Assembly: GCA_016928395.1 (NCBI GenBank)
Contig: JAFGKV010000127.1
Location: forward strand, 1-21,268
DNA: 21,268 bases
Direction of reading: 5' to 3'
Source of the DNA: Candidatus Fermentibacterota bacterium
GTDB lineage: Bacteria; JAFGKV01
In this document: positions 2,511-12,449 of the stretch, in pieces
How positions within the stretch are numbered: the stretch's first letter is position 1
Layout of the letters: the number at the start of each line of letters is the position of its first letter
Notes under the pieces: generated by a model
The model's input: only the letters and a program-made list of their open reading frames with translations
The model's database searches: none
What the model was told of the DNA's origin: nothing
Program-made: the position numbers and the translations under genes

Positions 2511-5500
2511 TCAGCCTCGGCCCTGTTCATCGGCCAACTCATCAATCAGGCCTTCGGGGCTACGGAGTCCGCCTGCCGCCAGTGCGTCAGAGAGCTCCCG
2601 GGCGGAAAGCTCTGCGTGCAAGATTCTCAGGACACGCTCTGAGTCAGCGGACAACCGCGCAGCCGGCAGGTGCGCCGCCAGGCTTCCCCACAGCTCTGCG
2701 GCCCGGCGATGATGTCCCTGGGCCAGGAGCAGCCGAACCCACGAGCCCAGAACCTGTTGCGCGTGTCGCCTGTCACCGCTCCCCTTCAAGACCGCCAATG
2801 CCCTCACGGCAGCATCCCTTGCCGCCGGGAGATCACCCTTGGAGACGAGGGCCTCGCACAGACCACGAAGACAGGTGACCATACCCCATCGGTTCTGATC
2901 GTGCTCAAAAACCTGTAGACTCTCCCGGTAGAGAGCGGACGCCCGATCGAATTCGTTCGTGATGCAGAGGGCATCCGCCAGGCACGCCCGCGAGACGGCT
3001 GCCTCGTGGTGCGCGCCCAAGACGGTGCGGATCGCCAGGCTCTCCTCCAGAGCGTGCCGGGCTTCATCTCCATGCCGCAGGTCGATATGCACATTCCCCA
3101 GGATGCACAGGCACACTGCCATCAGGTCCTGGTGGCCGAGATCCCGAGCGATTTCCAGCGCCTCCCGTGCGCGCTTCAACGCCTCGTCCAGTTCTCCATT
3201 GTCCAGGGCTAGATTGCACAAGCTCGTAATGGCCACCATCTCGGCCCTGCGATTCCCGATGCGACGACTGGTGTCACGACTCTCTTCGAAGTAAGCCCTC
3301 GCGCGCGCTAAGTCACCCCGGGAGCGGCAGAGGGTGCCGAGAGTATTGAGAGAGCTCATGAGTCCTGCCACGACGCCTTCGTTCCGGTGGAGCCTGAGGC
3401 TGTGAACGTAATGGTCTTCGGCGGCGGCATAGTCTCCGGCCTCCTGCGCCATGATGCCCATGTCGCCCAGTACATAGGCTTCCATGCCCCGGTCACTCGT
3501 GCTCTTGCAGAGAGCCAGCGCCTCGTCCAGCAGGGCCATGGCCTCGGCTCGATCGCCCTGGGAGGTGGCCACCAAGGCTAGATGCCTGAGGGTGAACGCC
3601 AGATCACGGTCTGCGCGGAGGTCAGCCTGAATCCGCCGGCTTTGCTCCAGGAGCGAACGGGTGCCCGCTCGTTCGCCAAGGCGAAACTGGAATGATCCCT
3701 GCCATGACATGAGCCGTGCGCGTAGCCGGGCAAGCCCTTCCGAAGATGGCAGGGCATTCAGCCGACGCGCCGCATCCCCACAGAGGCGGTCTCCCGCGTG
3801 GTACCACGCGCGTAAGGAGATGAGCAAGCAAAGCGGATCTAGAAGCCCTTCCAGGAGTGATGGTTCTCCCGTCCGAACCCCCCATTCCCACGCCGCGGCG
3901 ATGTTGTCGGACTCCGCGTCGACCCTAGCCAGGGTCTCGGGATCACCGGCTCGAATGCCCTTCTCTTCCGCGCTGAGGAAGTCCGCGTACCACCCGGCGT
4001 GCGCGGCCAAGGTTCTGGCCGGCTCCGCTTCAAGGCCGGCCAGCTTCTCGCGAAGAAAGCTCCGCAGCAGATTGTGCATCTGATACCTGTGCGGGCCTGC
4101 TCTCTGAATGAGGGAGCGATCGACCATCTGGGCCAGCATGCTGAGATCTAGCCCGGCCACGGCGACCGCGGCGTCTCGTCGAAAGCCGCCGGCAAACACT
4201 GAAACGCGTGCCAGAACTCGTCGGTGAGCATCATCAAGCAGCCTCCAGGAGCGATCGAACACTGCCCGCATGCTTCTGTGCTGCCGGGACGCATCCCGGG
4301 TGGTGGTCGAGAGGAAGTCAATGTCTCGGCCGATCTCTCCGGCGATGGCCGCGCACGTCAGGGTGCGAACCCAGCTCGCCGCCTGTTCGATGGCCAGGGG
4401 CACACCGTCAAGCATTCGGCAGATGCGCACCACATCCGGCATGTCGGCTTTCGTCACGTGAGCTCCTGCTCCGAGCCGTCGCACGTGTTCCAGAAAGAGC
4501 TGTATTGCGTCGTCGCCGCCCGCCCCCGGATCGCGCAGATCATCAGAAACACGGAGCCCTTCAAGATGCAGGAGAGCCTCCTCTTCGAGGTTCAGCCTGG
4601 TCCGCGAGGTGACCAGGAATCGGGGCCCGCAGGCATGCGTCAGGAGCCGCGTGAGTACGCAGGCGCCTTCAGTCAGACGATCGAAATCATCCAGGACCAA
4701 GAGAAGTCTTTTCTGGCTGAGAAACGCGGCCAACTGATCCGTCGGATCCTCTTTCCCGTAGAGAGTGACGTCGAGAGCATTGGCGATGGCCAGTGCAACG
4801 AAAGCCGGGGAATGAACTGTTCCCAAAGGCACAACGAAGGCCCCATCCGCGAAGTCACTCGACAAATCCTGTGCCGCGTGGAAGGCGAGGCGGCTCTTCC
4901 CGATTCCGCCAGGACCCAGCACTGTCAGCACCCTGCACGGCGTCGCGGCAAGAACCCGGCGAATCTCCGCCATCTCCGCAGTTCTTCCGATGAAGGGAGT
5001 CATGGTCCAAGAGGCCGGAACAGAGGGAGGAGCCGGCGTTCCTGTCGACGCTTTGACTCGCACTCCGTCTACCGGAGAACCATGGCCGGTGGCCGCGCCG
5101 AGGAGGGAGGAGATCGCGGCCCGCACCTCGGGCAGGCTCTGGAGCCTGAGATCCGGATCCGGATCGAGCATACGATAGATGGTGCAGGCGAGATCGTCCG
5201 TGATATCCGGCCGGGCATCGGTCAAAGATCGGATCATCCCGCCTTGTTCGGCGGGATGCGACGCTCCCCATGGCGGCCTTCCAGACAAGAGCTCAAACAG
5301 CAGTGCACCTGCCTGCCACATTGCCGAGTGCATGCCCGGGGGCTGGCCTTCCCGCACCTCCGGGCTCATGTAGTTGGCTCGACCCGCCTCGCATGTCGTC
5401 GCTACGATGCGGACCTGTGGTTGCTGCAGTTCGCCCTCGACCTGAATGTCATCCGGAGCGAGGCATCGGAGGAAGCTGTCATGCTCCGTCATTGCATCGA

Positions 5501-5615
5501 GCTGGTCGAGGATCGCCACCCCAAGCGCGGCAACGTGGGGGAGGGGCAATGGATGGCCTTGAACGAGATGCCGCAAGGTGCGAGGTGTGTCGTTGCCGGG
5601 GATTGCCGTGTGCAT
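2511..5615 (-). CDS. Pseudokinase-STAND ATPase-TPR regulatory protein
   Basis: This is a 1034-residue multidomain protein. Residues 11-172 resemble the C-lobe of Hanks-type Ser/Thr kinases: 'LVQGHPLPLPHVAALGVAIL', an activation-segment end 'NYMSPEV' (81-87) and 'LLFELLSGRPPW' (105-116). The catalytic loop reads 'LRCLAPDDIQV' (49-59), lacking the HRD aspartate and the lysine. No DFG is visible and the whole ATP-binding N-lobe is absent. Residues 207-520 form a STAND/NB-ARC-like ATPase: 'FIGRTAEMAEIRRVL', Walker A GPGGIGKS (234-241), Walker B LLLVLDD (304-310), a TSR sensor (336-338), 'GVPLAIE' (404-410) and an MHN triplet in place of MHD. About eight TPR-like repeats follow to about residue 960. 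Such proteins are usually signal-sensing switches, and the target here is unknown. The ATG has GAGG seven bases upstream, and an in-frame stop ten codons further up rules out an N-lobe in this frame. Confidence 0.88.
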   Translation of the reverse strand: MHTAIPGNDTPRTLRHLVQGHPLPLPHVAALGVAILDQLDAMTEHDSFLRCLAPDDIQVEGELQQPQVRIVATTCEAGRANYMSPEVREGQPPGMHSAMWQAGALLFELLSGRPPWGASHPAEQGGMIRSLTDARPDITDDLACTIYRMLDPDPDLRLQSLPEVRAAISSLLGAATGHGSPVDGVRVKASTGTPAPPSVPASWTMTPFIGRTAEMAEIRRVLAATPCRVLTVLGPGGIGKSRLAFHAAQDLSSDFADGAFVVPLGTVHSPAFVALAIANALDVTLYGKEDPTDQLAAFLSQKRLLLVLDDFDRLTEGACVLTRLLTHACGPRFLVTSRTRLNLEEEALLHLEGLRVSDDLRDPGAGGDDAIQLFLEHVRRLGAGAHVTKADMPDVVRICRMLDGVPLAIEQAASWVRTLTCAAIAGEIGRDIDFLSTTTRDASRQHRSMRAVFDRSWRLLDDAHRRVLARVSVFAGGFRRDAAVAVAGLDLSMLAQMVDRSLIQRAGPHRYQMHNLLRSFLREKLAGLEAEPARTLAAHAGWYADFLSAEEKGIRAGDPETLARVDAESDNIAAAWEWGVRTGEPSLLEGLLDPLCLLISLRAWYHAGDRLCGDAARRLNALPSSEGLARLRARLMSWQGSFQFRLGERAGTRSLLEQSRRIQADLRADRDLAFTLRHLALVATSQGDRAEAMALLDEALALCKSTSDRGMEAYVLGDMGIMAQEAGDYAAAEDHYVHSLRLHRNEGVVAGLMSSLNTLGTLCRSRGDLARARAYFEESRDTSRRIGNRRAEMVAITSLCNLALDNGELDEALKRAREALEIARDLGHQDLMAVCLCILGNVHIDLRHGDEARHALEESLAIRTVLGAHHEAAVSRACLADALCITNEFDRASALYRESLQVFEHDQNRWGMVTCLRGLCEALVSKGDLPAARDAAVRALAVLKGSGDRRHAQQVLGSWVRLLLAQGHHRRAAELWGSLAAHLPAARLSADSERVLRILHAELSARELSDALAAGGLRSPEGLIDELADEQGRG

Positions 5616-5933
5616 GAGATGCCCTCGGTAGTCTGTGGGTCTTCAGCAAAGACTCCACCGTGAAGCTGTCGCATGGGGTCCCTTCGCGCAAGAGCCGCCA
5701 CGCTGCGTCCCTGCCGTATTCGATCCGGGCGGCTCGAGGCATGCCGTCTCCTCCCCGGCGCGCGGGTCGGCTTCGCGTCTGGCGTCAATCCTGCCCGCCG
5801 ACCGCATGTCCCCATTTCACTGTTGCAACGGCCCACGTCAGGGGATACGTTCGTGGCATTCAGAATTGTGGGCGAGTACGCCCTTTCTTGGGATGCTCGT
5901 CACAGCGACAGCCCCCCGGAAAGGAGCGCCGCC
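5616..5933. other. Divergent intergenic region
   Basis: This 318-base gap separates the minus-strand pseudokinase-STAND gene from the plus-strand repeat protein, so it should contain both promoters. On the plus strand, TTGCAA (5823-5828) and TACGTT (5846-5851) are 17 bases apart, a weak sigma-70-like match. AAGGAG at 5921-5926 is the ribosome site of the downstream gene. Open frames cross the region on both strands, but none shows family features or a good start, and I regard them as non-coding. Confidence 0.4.
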
Positions 5934-7742
5934 ATGCGAAGGTTGATCGTCCTCCTCTTCCTATCTGTGGCCCTCTCCGCCAGCCTTGCCCAGATCCCCC
6001 GCATGATCAGCTACCAGGGCAAGGTGACCGATGGGTCAGGCAACCCCGTGGCTGACAACACCTACGTCATGAGGTTTCGCATCTACAATGCCTCCAGTGG
6101 CGGCACGATGCTGTGGGACAGTTCGAATCAGAACGTGGCGGTGAATGGAGGGGTCTTCAACGTGTTGCTTGGCGAGAGCCCTCAGCCGGCCTTGGGACTG
6201 GCCTTCGACGCGGACTACTGGCTTCTGGTGACGTTCGCGGGAGTCGATCAAACGCCCCGACATCGCCTGGCCTCAGTCGGCTATGCCTATATGGCCAGTG
6301 GCCTGGTACCGGGGACCGTCGTCTCTGGATCGGTTACCACGGGCTCGTCGGCAGCCATTGCCGGGGTGAACACGGCGGCCACGGGCAGCACGTACGGCAC
6401 GTATGGGCAAGTCAGTTCCACCGCGGGCACGGGCCTGTATGGGTGGGCAACAGCCACCACAGGGTACCCGCGAGGCGTCGTGGGTGTGAGCAGCTCCCCT
6501 ACAGGAACGGGAGTGCTCGGGTACAGCAACGCCACCTCAGGCGCCAACTGCGGTGTCTACGGGTACAGCCCCTCACCCGACGGTCGGGGAGTCTATGGCT
6601 ACGCCCTGAACTCAGGTGGACAGAACTTTGGGGTCTACGGAGAAAGCGCCTCTGCTATCGGTCGCGGTGTCTACGGGTATGGGACCGCGACAACCGGCGT
6701 AAACTACGGCGTGTACGGCCGCACTGATTCGCAGAACGGCTATGGTGTGTTCGCCTCGGCCACAGCAAACACGGGTAGCAACTACGGTGTCTATGCCTTG
6801 ACCACGTCGATGGCCGGCACGGCATTATACGGCTGGGCCCAGGCAGCTACCGGCACCATCTACGGTGGCCGGTTCCGAGCGGATGCATCCGCCGGCAGGG
6901 GTGTCTTTGGCGAAGCAACCGCCACGACCGGCACCACCTACGGGGGGTACTTCCAGAGTGCATCAGCATCAGGGCATGGCGTCTACGCGTACGCCTCGGC
7001 GGAGACGGGCGATACGTATGCCGTTCGCGGGGAGTGCGAGTCAACGGAGGGGGTCGCGGTGCATGGGTCGGCTCTCGCGAACTCTGGCAACACCGTCGGC
7101 GTCGAGGGCGTGAGCTACTCCACCTCAGGCAAGGGGGTCTTCGGCCGCGCCGGTGCCACCACCGGAGTAGTATTCGGAGGACGTTTCGAGGCAAACTCCA
7201 CCAGCGGTAGAGGAGTGAATGGGGTGGCCATGGCAACTACGGGCACCAACTACGGGGTCTACGGCTACACGGCATCCACTTCTGGTTACGGAGTCTACTT
7301 CTCGGGCGGTCTCGCCGGTTCCGGCACCAAGAGCTGTGTGGTGAAGACATCCAGGGGACCGAGCCTGATGTACTGTCAAGAGAGCCCCGAAAACTGGTTC
7401 GAGGACTTCGGCGAAGGGCGCCTCGTGAATGGGCGGGCGCACATCGAGCTGGATCCCCTCTTCCTGGAGACGGTGACCATCGATGAGGCGAACCCCATGA
7501 AGGTGTTCGTGCAGCTTCATGATGAGACGTGCAAGGGCGTGGCCGTGAAGAAGGGCCTGACTGGCTTCGATGTGATCGAGCTCTGGGAGGGCACGTCACA
7601 CGGCGCCTTCGACTACCGCGTGGTTGCCAAGCGCAAGGGCTACGAGGAGCGACGGCTCGACTACTGCGCAGCGGCGGAGACCGACTCTCACCTGTTTCCC
7701 GAGTTACGGGAGAAGGAAAACGAGCGCCTCAGCGCGGACTAG
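5934..7742 (+). CDS. Secreted surface protein with twelve 26-residue repeats
   Basis: This is a 602-residue protein with a Sec signal peptide (about 1-19, MRRLIVLLFLSVALSASLAQ). An N-terminal module (about 20-125) carries 'IPRMISYQGKVTDGSG', 'GGTMLWDSS', 'NGGVFNVLLG' and 'PRHRLASVGYAYMA', which I recognise from secreted proteins of uncultured diderm bacteria. Residues 148-459 are twelve consecutive 26-residue repeats of the form ATTGxxYGVYG...GxGVYGxAx without a gap. The C-terminal module (460-602) has 'WFEDFGEGRLVNGRAHIEL', 'ETVTI', 'FDVIELWEGTSHGAFDYRV' and 'AKRKGYE', a conserved ending of fibre-like proteins. The architecture suggests an extended beta-rich stalk carrying a globular tip, perhaps an adhesin. 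Binding partner and anchoring are unknown. AAGGAG lies seven bases before this ATG. An in-frame ATG at 5673 would bury the signal peptide and is rejected. Confidence 0.85.
   Translation: MRRLIVLLFLSVALSASLAQIPRMISYQGKVTDGSGNPVADNTYVMRFRIYNASSGGTMLWDSSNQNVAVNGGVFNVLLGESPQPALGLAFDADYWLLVTFAGVDQTPRHRLASVGYAYMASGLVPGTVVSGSVTTGSSAAIAGVNTAATGSTYGTYGQVSSTAGTGLYGWATATTGYPRGVVGVSSSPTGTGVLGYSNATSGANCGVYGYSPSPDGRGVYGYALNSGGQNFGVYGESASAIGRGVYGYGTATTGVNYGVYGRTDSQNGYGVFASATANTGSNYGVYALTTSMAGTALYGWAQAATGTIYGGRFRADASAGRGVFGEATATTGTTYGGYFQSASASGHGVYAYASAETGDTYAVRGECESTEGVAVHGSALANSGNTVGVEGVSYSTSGKGVFGRAGATTGVVFGGRFEANSTSGRGVNGVAMATTGTNYGVYGYTASTSGYGVYFSGGLAGSGTKSCVVKTSRGPSLMYCQESPENWFEDFGEGRLVNGRAHIELDPLFLETVTIDEANPMKVFVQLHDETCKGVAVKKGLTGFDVIELWEGTSHGAFDYRVVAKRKGYEERRLDYCAAAETDSHLFPELREKENERLSAD
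6375..7310 (+). repeat. Twelve in-frame 78-bp repeats encoding 26-residue units
   Basis: The reading frame divides exactly into twelve 26-codon units with no insertion or deletion. Fixed positions are the TG at units 3-4, YG near units 7-8, and a G-x-G-V-Y-G near units 18-23. Synonymous codons vary freely between units (ggtgtctac, ggagtctat, ggggtctac). The array is therefore old and conserved at protein level, not a recent DNA amplification. Confidence 0.85.
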
Positions 7743-8056: not shown

Positions 8057-8929
8057 ATGCGCGTGCTCATGGCCGTGTGCATGATGGCCCTGGCCTTGCC
8101 GGCCATGGCCTGGGAGAAATCGGCCGATCTCGGCCTGAACTTCAACCAGACTGCCTATAGCAACTCATGGACTGGCGGCGAGTCCGGCGCCATCACGTGG
8201 ACCTTCACTGGCAACCTCGCTGCCCAGAAACAGATGAGCCCCAAGGTCCATTGGGGCAACCAGCTCAAGCTCCAGTTCGGCCAGACTCACAATCAGGCCA
8301 CTGCGGGTGATGGCTCAAAAAACTGGGAGTCTCCCCAGAAGTCATCAGACCGGATCTTCCTGGAGAGCATCGCCAAGTTGACCCTGGGCGCCTTTGTGGA
8401 TCCATACACCGCGTTCACCTTCGAGAGTCAATTCTACGATGCCAGCGTGCCGCGCGTGCCGCGCTACATCAATCCCATGCTCCTCACGGAGTCTATTGGT
8501 GCCGGCAAGACCCTCATCAAGAATGAGCACACGGAACTGCTCTCCCGTCTCGGGTTCGCCATCCGTGAGCGGTTCGACCGTGTGGTCATAGACATCGCCA
8601 CAGAGGAGACCGAGATGGAGACCACCACCGACGGCGGTCTCGAATGGGTCAGCGACTTCAGCCACACACTCAGCGACAACGCCAAGTATGTGTCGAAGCT
8701 GCGGGTGTTCCAGGCCGTCTTCAGCAACGCCGCCGATGATCTGGAGGGCTTACCCAACGAGGACTACTGGAAGACCGCCGACATCGCCTGGGAGAATGCG
8801 CTCTCGGCAACTGTCTCCAAGTACCTGCAGTTCTCTCTGTTTGCCGAAGTTCTCTACGACAAGGAACTCGATCTCCGGGGCCGCTTCCGCGAGGTCCTCG
8901 GCGTCGGAATCGCCTACAAGCTGTTCTAA
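8057..8929 (+). CDS. DUF3078 family outer-membrane beta-barrel protein
   Basis: This 290-residue protein has a Sec signal peptide (about 1-18, MRVLMAVCMMALALPAMA). The mature start 'WEKSADLGLNFNQTAYSNSW' and 'TGGESGAITWTFTGNL' match DUF3078 proteins. The remainder alternates amphipathic strands, as expected for a barrel: 'HWGNQLKLQFGQT', 'PYTAFTFESQFYD' and 'YLQFSLFAEVLYD'. The last residue is phenylalanine (GVGIAYKLF), the usual signal for assembly into the outer membrane. The family has no established substrate, and a porin or structural role is possible. AAGGAGG at 8045-8051 sits five bases before the ATG and fixes the start. A longer in-frame extension reaching 7529 would hide the signal peptide and run back into the previous gene, so it is rejected. 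The gene converges on the DUF362 gene. Confidence 0.88.
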   Translation: MRVLMAVCMMALALPAMAWEKSADLGLNFNQTAYSNSWTGGESGAITWTFTGNLAAQKQMSPKVHWGNQLKLQFGQTHNQATAGDGSKNWESPQKSSDRIFLESIAKLTLGAFVDPYTAFTFESQFYDASVPRVPRYINPMLLTESIGAGKTLIKNEHTELLSRLGFAIRERFDRVVIDIATEETEMETTTDGGLEWVSDFSHTLSDNAKYVSKLRVFQAVFSNAADDLEGLPNEDYWKTADIAWENALSATVSKYLQFSLFAEVLYDKELDLRGRFREVLGVGIAYKLF

Positions 8930-12330: not shown

Positions 12331-12449
12331 CAGCCAACTGCGGGCCGTACTCTCAACCTCGAAGAATCTGAGGGCGCGTCGCGCCGTCAGAGTCCCGACT
12401 GAACCCTGAACCCTGAACCCCGAACCCCGAACCCTGAACCCTGAACCCT
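12331..12449. repeat. Dispersed repeat module, full copy with heptamer array
   Basis: 'agccaactgc', 'tactctcaacc' and 'gaatctgaggg' follow the same order as at 1-91. An imperfect 11-bp stem follows (about 12367-12393) in which TCTGAGGGCGC faces GCGCCGTCAGA with one mismatch. The end is seven tandem heptamers, GAACCCT or GAACCCC (12401-12449), compared with two in the first copy. It stops about 29 bases beyond the tldE stop codon. Confidence 0.75.

Follow-up and report, generated by a model that had tools for sequence, protein, structure and literature searches.

The fibre gene and its locus

We analysed a 21,268-nucleotide stretch of DNA from a Candidatus Fermentibacterota bacterium (contig JAFGKV010000127.1 of assembly GCA_016928395.1; hereafter the window), which carries a gene for a repeat-bearing protein with a signal peptide, here called the fibre gene. 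The features of the locus are as follows.

2511-5615, minus strand: divergent neighbour encoding a kinase-like/NACHT/TPR (STAND-type) protein by Pfam, a possible regulator
5920-5926, plus strand: ribosome-binding site AAAGGAG of the fibre gene, 7 bases upstream of the ATG at 5934
5934-7742, plus strand: fibre gene, 602 amino acids plus stop by translation, with paralogs genome-wide
5934-5990, plus strand: Sec-type signal peptide, residues 1-19 (MRRLIVLLFLSVALSASLA), read from the sequence
5991-6287, plus strand: N-terminal Ig-like beta domain, residues 20-118 (NCBIfam NF053851; pLDDT mostly >90)
6375-7310, plus strand: shaft, residues 148-459, twelve 26-residue units, each a 12+14 pair (repeat analysis and model)
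7314-7664, plus strand: C-terminal tailspike-cap-like beta-sandwich, residues 461-577, with the motif ESPENWFEDFG (PHROG 6616, phage tail proteins, predicted fold and conservation)
7665-7739, plus strand: C-terminal tail, residues 578-602, with helices predicted in the AlphaFold2 model
8057-8926, plus strand: DUF3078/DUF481-type outer-membrane-like protein, downstream of the fibre gene

Sites of the AGGAG type are also found ahead of the start codons of most fibre paralogs, which likewise start with a hydrophobic leader. The signal peptide of the fibre protein probably ends at ...SASLA/QIPR, as judged by eye.

The 26-residue shaft unit

An earlier note on this DNA described the shaft as twelve units of exactly 26 residues with no indel and with well diverged synonymous sites, and both observations hold: all 11 spacings across residues 148-459 are 26, and codons are identical at 36.4% of the identical residues between units, where 34.5% is expected at saturation. 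Self-identity of the shaft at a lag of 26 is 0.41, compared with a mean of 0.11 and a maximum of 0.17 after shuffling. Scored with a profile made from units of the own genome, those of the paralogs included besides those of the fibre protein itself, all 12 units reach between 34.9 and 59.9 bits, against a maximum of 11.6 bits in 200 shuffled arrays. A DNA tandem-repeat finder detected no array at the fibre gene when run on the window. Saturated codon choice at constant unit length indicates that the units are old and that their length has been held by selection on the protein.

Each unit consists of a pair of strand-turn elements of 12 and 14 residues (roughly ATTGxTYGVYGxSASTxGRGVYGxAT), a subdivision that the earlier note did not contain, any more than it did the residue pattern described next or the existence of a large paralogous family. 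Conserved small positions (V9, G11, S13 and S15 in one half; V21, G23, A25 and A1 in the other) alternate with variable ones, with mean entropies of ~1.2 and 3.3 bits respectively in the per-position table; read from sequence, this alternation is the pattern of two putative beta strands that each turn one face inward. Scans of the whole protein gave no Pfam or NCBIfam model for the shaft, and a literature search found no paper on a 26-residue shaft repeat of this kind.

The N-terminal domain and mosaic adhesive trimers

The N-terminal domain matches NCBIfam NF053851 (Bdello_MAT_N) over positions 3-75 of 162 with 28.7 bits (E 1e-6), a match that covers about half of the profile and lies below the curated NCBIfam score of 60 bits. 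The same model matches 30 loci in the own genome (0 of 30 above the curated cut-off) and 20 of 35 aligned homologs, but 0 of 14 control genomes; structural matches of the domain are to generic Ig-like sandwiches. Judged by its profile match, the domain is a diverged homolog of the Bdellovibrio MAT N-domain, outside the curated subfamily. The mosaic adhesive trimer (MAT) fibres of Bdellovibrio bacteriovorus function in prey recognition, are intertwined trimers, number 21 in HD100, and have been described by their varied tips, which are swapped between shafts (PMC10769870).

The fibre protein shares with these fibres a signal peptide directly followed by a conserved beta domain (residues 1-19, with the domain from residue 20), a beta-rich repetitive shaft and a phage-fibre-type C-terminal tip, as well as a common N-terminus combined with exchangeable tips in many paralogs, here about 31 genes with at least three other tip types. 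Unlike the Bdellovibrio fibres, it has a shaft made of strict 26-residue units, one cap type is kept by most of its paralogs, and no evidence of predation was found for the organism that bears it. The MAT capping-loop motif (V-G-G/N-x-x-x-P-x-x-x-L) is absent from the fibre protein, while a VGIGTxxPxxxL-type motif was found in two paralogs (L041, L045) and 18 ORFs of relatives. Neither a Pfam match to the S74 peptidase/chaperone nor an SDxxxK motif was identified in the fibre protein; S74 marks one MAT subgroup only, and non-S74 MATs exist. We have not filed the protein as a MAT member because its N-domain scores below the cut-off, the capping-loop motif is absent, and its trimer is putative.

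The cap-like C-terminal domain and its phage relatives

The C-terminal domain, in whose homologs the ESPENWFEDFG motif is near-invariant, matches PHROG 6616 and the C-termini of siphophage tail proteins (E 2e-7 to 5e-6 in database searches and 7e-12 pairwise) at 30-35% identity, with the phage matches covering ~20% of the query. In comparison with Enterococcus phage phiFL2A gp57, Lactobacillus prophage Lj965 and Lactococcus phage PLgT-1, only the last ~120 residues are common, and the N-terminal and shaft regions are unrelated. Folded alone, the domain reaches a pLDDT of ~95 over its core, and the predicted fold is most similar to the C-terminal domain of the Pam1 tailspike (7eea; Z 9.1, rmsd 1.8 Å over 70 residues), followed by the Klebsiella K1 lyase (7w1c/7w1d; Z 8.6 for 7w1d) and K64-1 S2-4 (9k4a; Z 8.6), with R2 pyocin, AP22 and Sf6 fibres or spikes and H-type lectins among the lower-ranked matches. 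Foldseek against the PDB with the domain alone returned no significant E-value, the best being 3.9e-3 at a probability of 1.00. By the structural alignments, the domain is predicted to take the beta-sandwich cap fold of trimeric tailspikes.

With the trimeric tailspikes (Pam1, K1 lyase, K64-1 S2-4 and Sf6) the fibre protein would have in common a beta-helical shaft, as modelled, followed by a C-terminal beta-sandwich cap. It differs from them in having no detectable sequence similarity and no recognised enzyme domain, and in possessing a bacterial signal peptide, another N-domain and a much more regular repeat. The R-type pyocin fibre (6cl6) and the AP22 gp53 tip (4mtm) also share a lectin-like C-terminal beta-sandwich with it (Z ~6), but the match is weaker, is not accompanied by sequence similarity and involves a different shaft. 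The pyocin and AP22 domains of cap-like fold have been described as trimeric and lectin-like (PMC6116203). No Pfam match to the head repeats or to the C-terminal membrane anchor of trimeric autotransporters (YadA) was found at E values up to 10.

A family of paralogs with alternative tips

In the own genome (4.79 Mb in 343 contigs), a search returned 98 matching stretches, and 35 stretches match an alignment of the C-domain. The fetched loci contain 31 ORFs with the N-domain, 30 with the C-domain and 22 with both, several of the single-domain ORFs being interrupted by contig ends. Their arrays range from a few to 23 units (308 units in total), and 236 of the 242 spacings of up to 30 residues are exactly 26. 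Some fibre genes are clustered in tandem in groups of two to four (G000 contigs C193 with L025, C96 with L031 and C1 with L034). At the DNA level, certain units of different paralogs share 95-99% identity, indicating recent copying elsewhere in the family. Homologs were found in Candidatus Eisenbacteria (isolate Prado127, the nearest), Zixibacteria, Acidobacteria and Fermentibacteria, and further in Bacteroidota, Rhodocyclaceae, Planctomycetes and Anaerolineae.

Tips other than the tailspike-type cap occur on the same N-domain and shaft. A 403-aa ORF of the own genome (L038) ends in a tip of ~86 residues (YDSGW...FRVRIWRY) for which there was no Pfam, PHROG or phage match, and which is also borne by a sister-species gene (L054, 2878-4353). 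L026 has a weakly Peptidase_G2-like C-terminal end (E 0.013, below the cut-off), L049 and a 593-aa ORF of L038 carry a diverged ESPENLLIYRG form of the cap motif, and L047 combines the N-domain with hardly any shaft units and a C-terminal end without a match. The sister species has, at its syntenic locus, a fibre gene (L054/L112) with the YDSGW tip and a shorter array of 6 scored units, whereas that of the window has the tailspike-type cap and twelve; replacement of the tip alone or of the entire gene would each be compatible with this difference. Distances between N-domains correlate poorly with those between C-domains (r 0.09, compared with r values of 0.72 within N and of 0.56 within C), which suggests that modules have been shuffled among fibre genes. 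In the closer subset, however, no correlation is seen among the C halves either, so that the test is weak evidence, though consistent with shuffling.

Fold of the shaft

The earlier note inferred a strict structural period between two conserved modules, and this is what the AlphaFold2 monomer model displays: the array is regular, every 26 residues holding two strands, and is flanked by confident N- and C-terminal domains, rather than being a confident structure in which the period is missing. The shaft is modelled as a beta-solenoid with a pLDDT of ~70-80 that drops to 50-58 towards the C-terminal end. The best match to the whole model is the curli subunit CsgA of Pontibacter korlensis (8c50; Z 25.5, rmsd 8.7 Å over 305 residues), and the whole shaft also aligns with the helix of the Pam1 tailspike (7eea; Z 15, 4.3 Å over 311 residues). 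Statements on fold made here are based on VIA-align rows and not on Foldseek, which gave no significant E-value for the whole model against the PDB. Matches from a sequence search of the PDB (a MORN-named chain and Fab chains) were discarded as weak or composition-driven. The monomer model favours a solenoid with one 26-residue unit per rung, which we do not claim as proven. For CsgA, the handedness predicted by AlphaFold2 varied with alignment depth (PMC10192328).

Relatives differ in the period of the shaft. In Acidobacteria, some units are spaced at 39 residues and a period of 65 is seen, and shafts between the same N- and C-modules have strict periods of 15/30/45/60 instead of 26 in L058, L061, L062, L063, L070 and L072, which are mostly from Zixibacteria. 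Taken together, these values point to the half unit as the probable basic element. Viral triple beta-spirals are built of 15-residue repeats, of which the 15-residue-based Zixibacteria shafts are reminiscent. It is plausible, although we consider it less probable than a solenoid, that three chains are intertwined in a triple-stranded beta-helix, beta-prism or beta-spiral, as in MAT shafts and viral fibres. Each element of 12-15 residues would then be one strand of a three-fold shaft shared by the chains, not half of a single-chain solenoid rung. Such a shaft would be in keeping with the intertwined trimers of MAT fibres (PMC10769870) and with a basic element in relatives of 13 or 15 residues that need not be a two-strand rung, and chain intertwining is invisible to monomer prediction. 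Against it, the monomer model packs as a solenoid, alignable with both CsgA and the helix of the Pam1 tailspike, and spacings in the own genome are nearly all the full 26. The role of the protein would be the same with either shaft.

The CsgA match raises a second alternative, in which the protein is a matrix component with a structural rather than a recognitive function, its curli-like solenoids joining by their ends to build extracellular-matrix fibrils. The shaft has in common with CsgA (8c50) a two-strand rung with small or hydrophobic residues inward and variable residues outward, an alternation that resembles curlin repeats (PMC10192328). However, its unit is 26 residues long with Gly/Ala/Ser positions and no curlin N/Q signature, no Pfam curlin match was obtained at E values up to 10, and the C-domain has the predicted tailspike-cap fold. 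As globular domains at both ends of the array would block end-to-end stacking, we regard curli-like polymerisation as unlikely. That the gene as a whole came from a phage, as a prophage tail fibre rather than a cellular adhesin, is more improbable still, since despite the homology of the C-domain to siphophage tail proteins the gene encodes a signal peptide, has some thirty copies spread over many contigs, lies among chromosomal housekeeping-type genes, matches phage proteins over just a fifth of its length, and found no relative in an IMG/VR scan with the fibre protein as query. Plasmid sequences also gave no match to the fibre protein.

A putative repertoire of attachment fibres

We conclude that the gene probably encodes a secreted, likely trimeric, MAT-like surface fibre with a beta-structured shaft of 26-residue units, a reading that draws on the observed anatomy, period, family size, homologies and tip differences and on predicted domain folds. 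This conclusion concerns role and the intertwined shaft concerns fold, so the two overlap. The signal peptide, as read from the sequence, would export the protein, and the N-terminal Ig-like domain would sit at the cell surface by analogy with MAT fibres. The twelve units, whose period and pattern are observed and whose topology is predicted, would form a rigid beta-structured shaft, each unit contributing a 12-residue and a 14-residue strand-turn half whose small side chains face inward and variable ones outward. The tailspike-type beta-sandwich may cap and trimerise the fibre, bind a surface glycan, or both. We infer surface location, trimerisation and adhesion from these likenesses, and some thirty genes that differ in unit number, in outward shaft residues and in some cases in the tip would then provide a repertoire of attachment fibres, with other cells, polysaccharide or substrate as candidate targets.

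The earlier note had proposed a new fibre-type adhesin architecture, of which the secreted, fibre-like nature stands and the adhesin function is probable. The architecture is not new throughout, since its N-module has a homolog in the N-domain of the characterised MAT fibres (PMC10769870) and its C-module has homologs in the C-termini of siphophage tail proteins and, by predicted fold, relatives in trimeric tailspike caps. On our best reading, the shaft repeat is new, while a MAT-like working principle and phage-type tips are known. More tentatively, the 12+14 GVYG unit may represent an undescribed shaft fold, either a new kind of trimeric stalk or a very slender solenoid with a Gly/Ala/Ser core, within a recombining repertoire of ~30 fibres in which phage-type tips and shaft quanta of 13 residues (Eisenbacteria, Acidobacteria) or 15 residues (Zixibacteria) would be swapped between shared anchor and cap modules. 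If true, this would place modular recognition of cells or surfaces outside the known predators, in an uncultured phylum.

Beyond the model predator, uncultured environmental phyla would also possess chimeric surface fibres with phage-type tips, the idea behind MAT, and the repertoire here is at least as large as in that predator. Because paralogs vary in unit number between fixed end modules, shaft topology and length should be directly measurable. In the absence of a Pfam model for either the repeat or the cap, such proteins have probably been left as hypothetical in many genomes.

Genomic context of the fibre genes

The STAND-type gene is also divergent to the fibre gene in the sister genome, where its ortholog adjoins the fibre gene at the syntenic locus and the NfeD and SPFH neighbours are kept. 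Genes of this type were observed near fibre genes on contigs C186, C119, C171 and C260 of the own genome (G000) and on contigs C85, C355 and C276 of G001. They lie within ~3 kb of 4 of the 15 own-genome fibre loci with the window excluded, which is commoner than expected (rough binomial P ~0.004, with the background area estimated by hand). The downstream DUF3078 gene was considered as a fixed partner and rejected, as its orthologs in the sister genomes have no fibre gene directly upstream. Further along the window, an intergenic stretch at 12399-12449 consists of 7.3 copies of the 7-bp tandem repeat CTGAACC.
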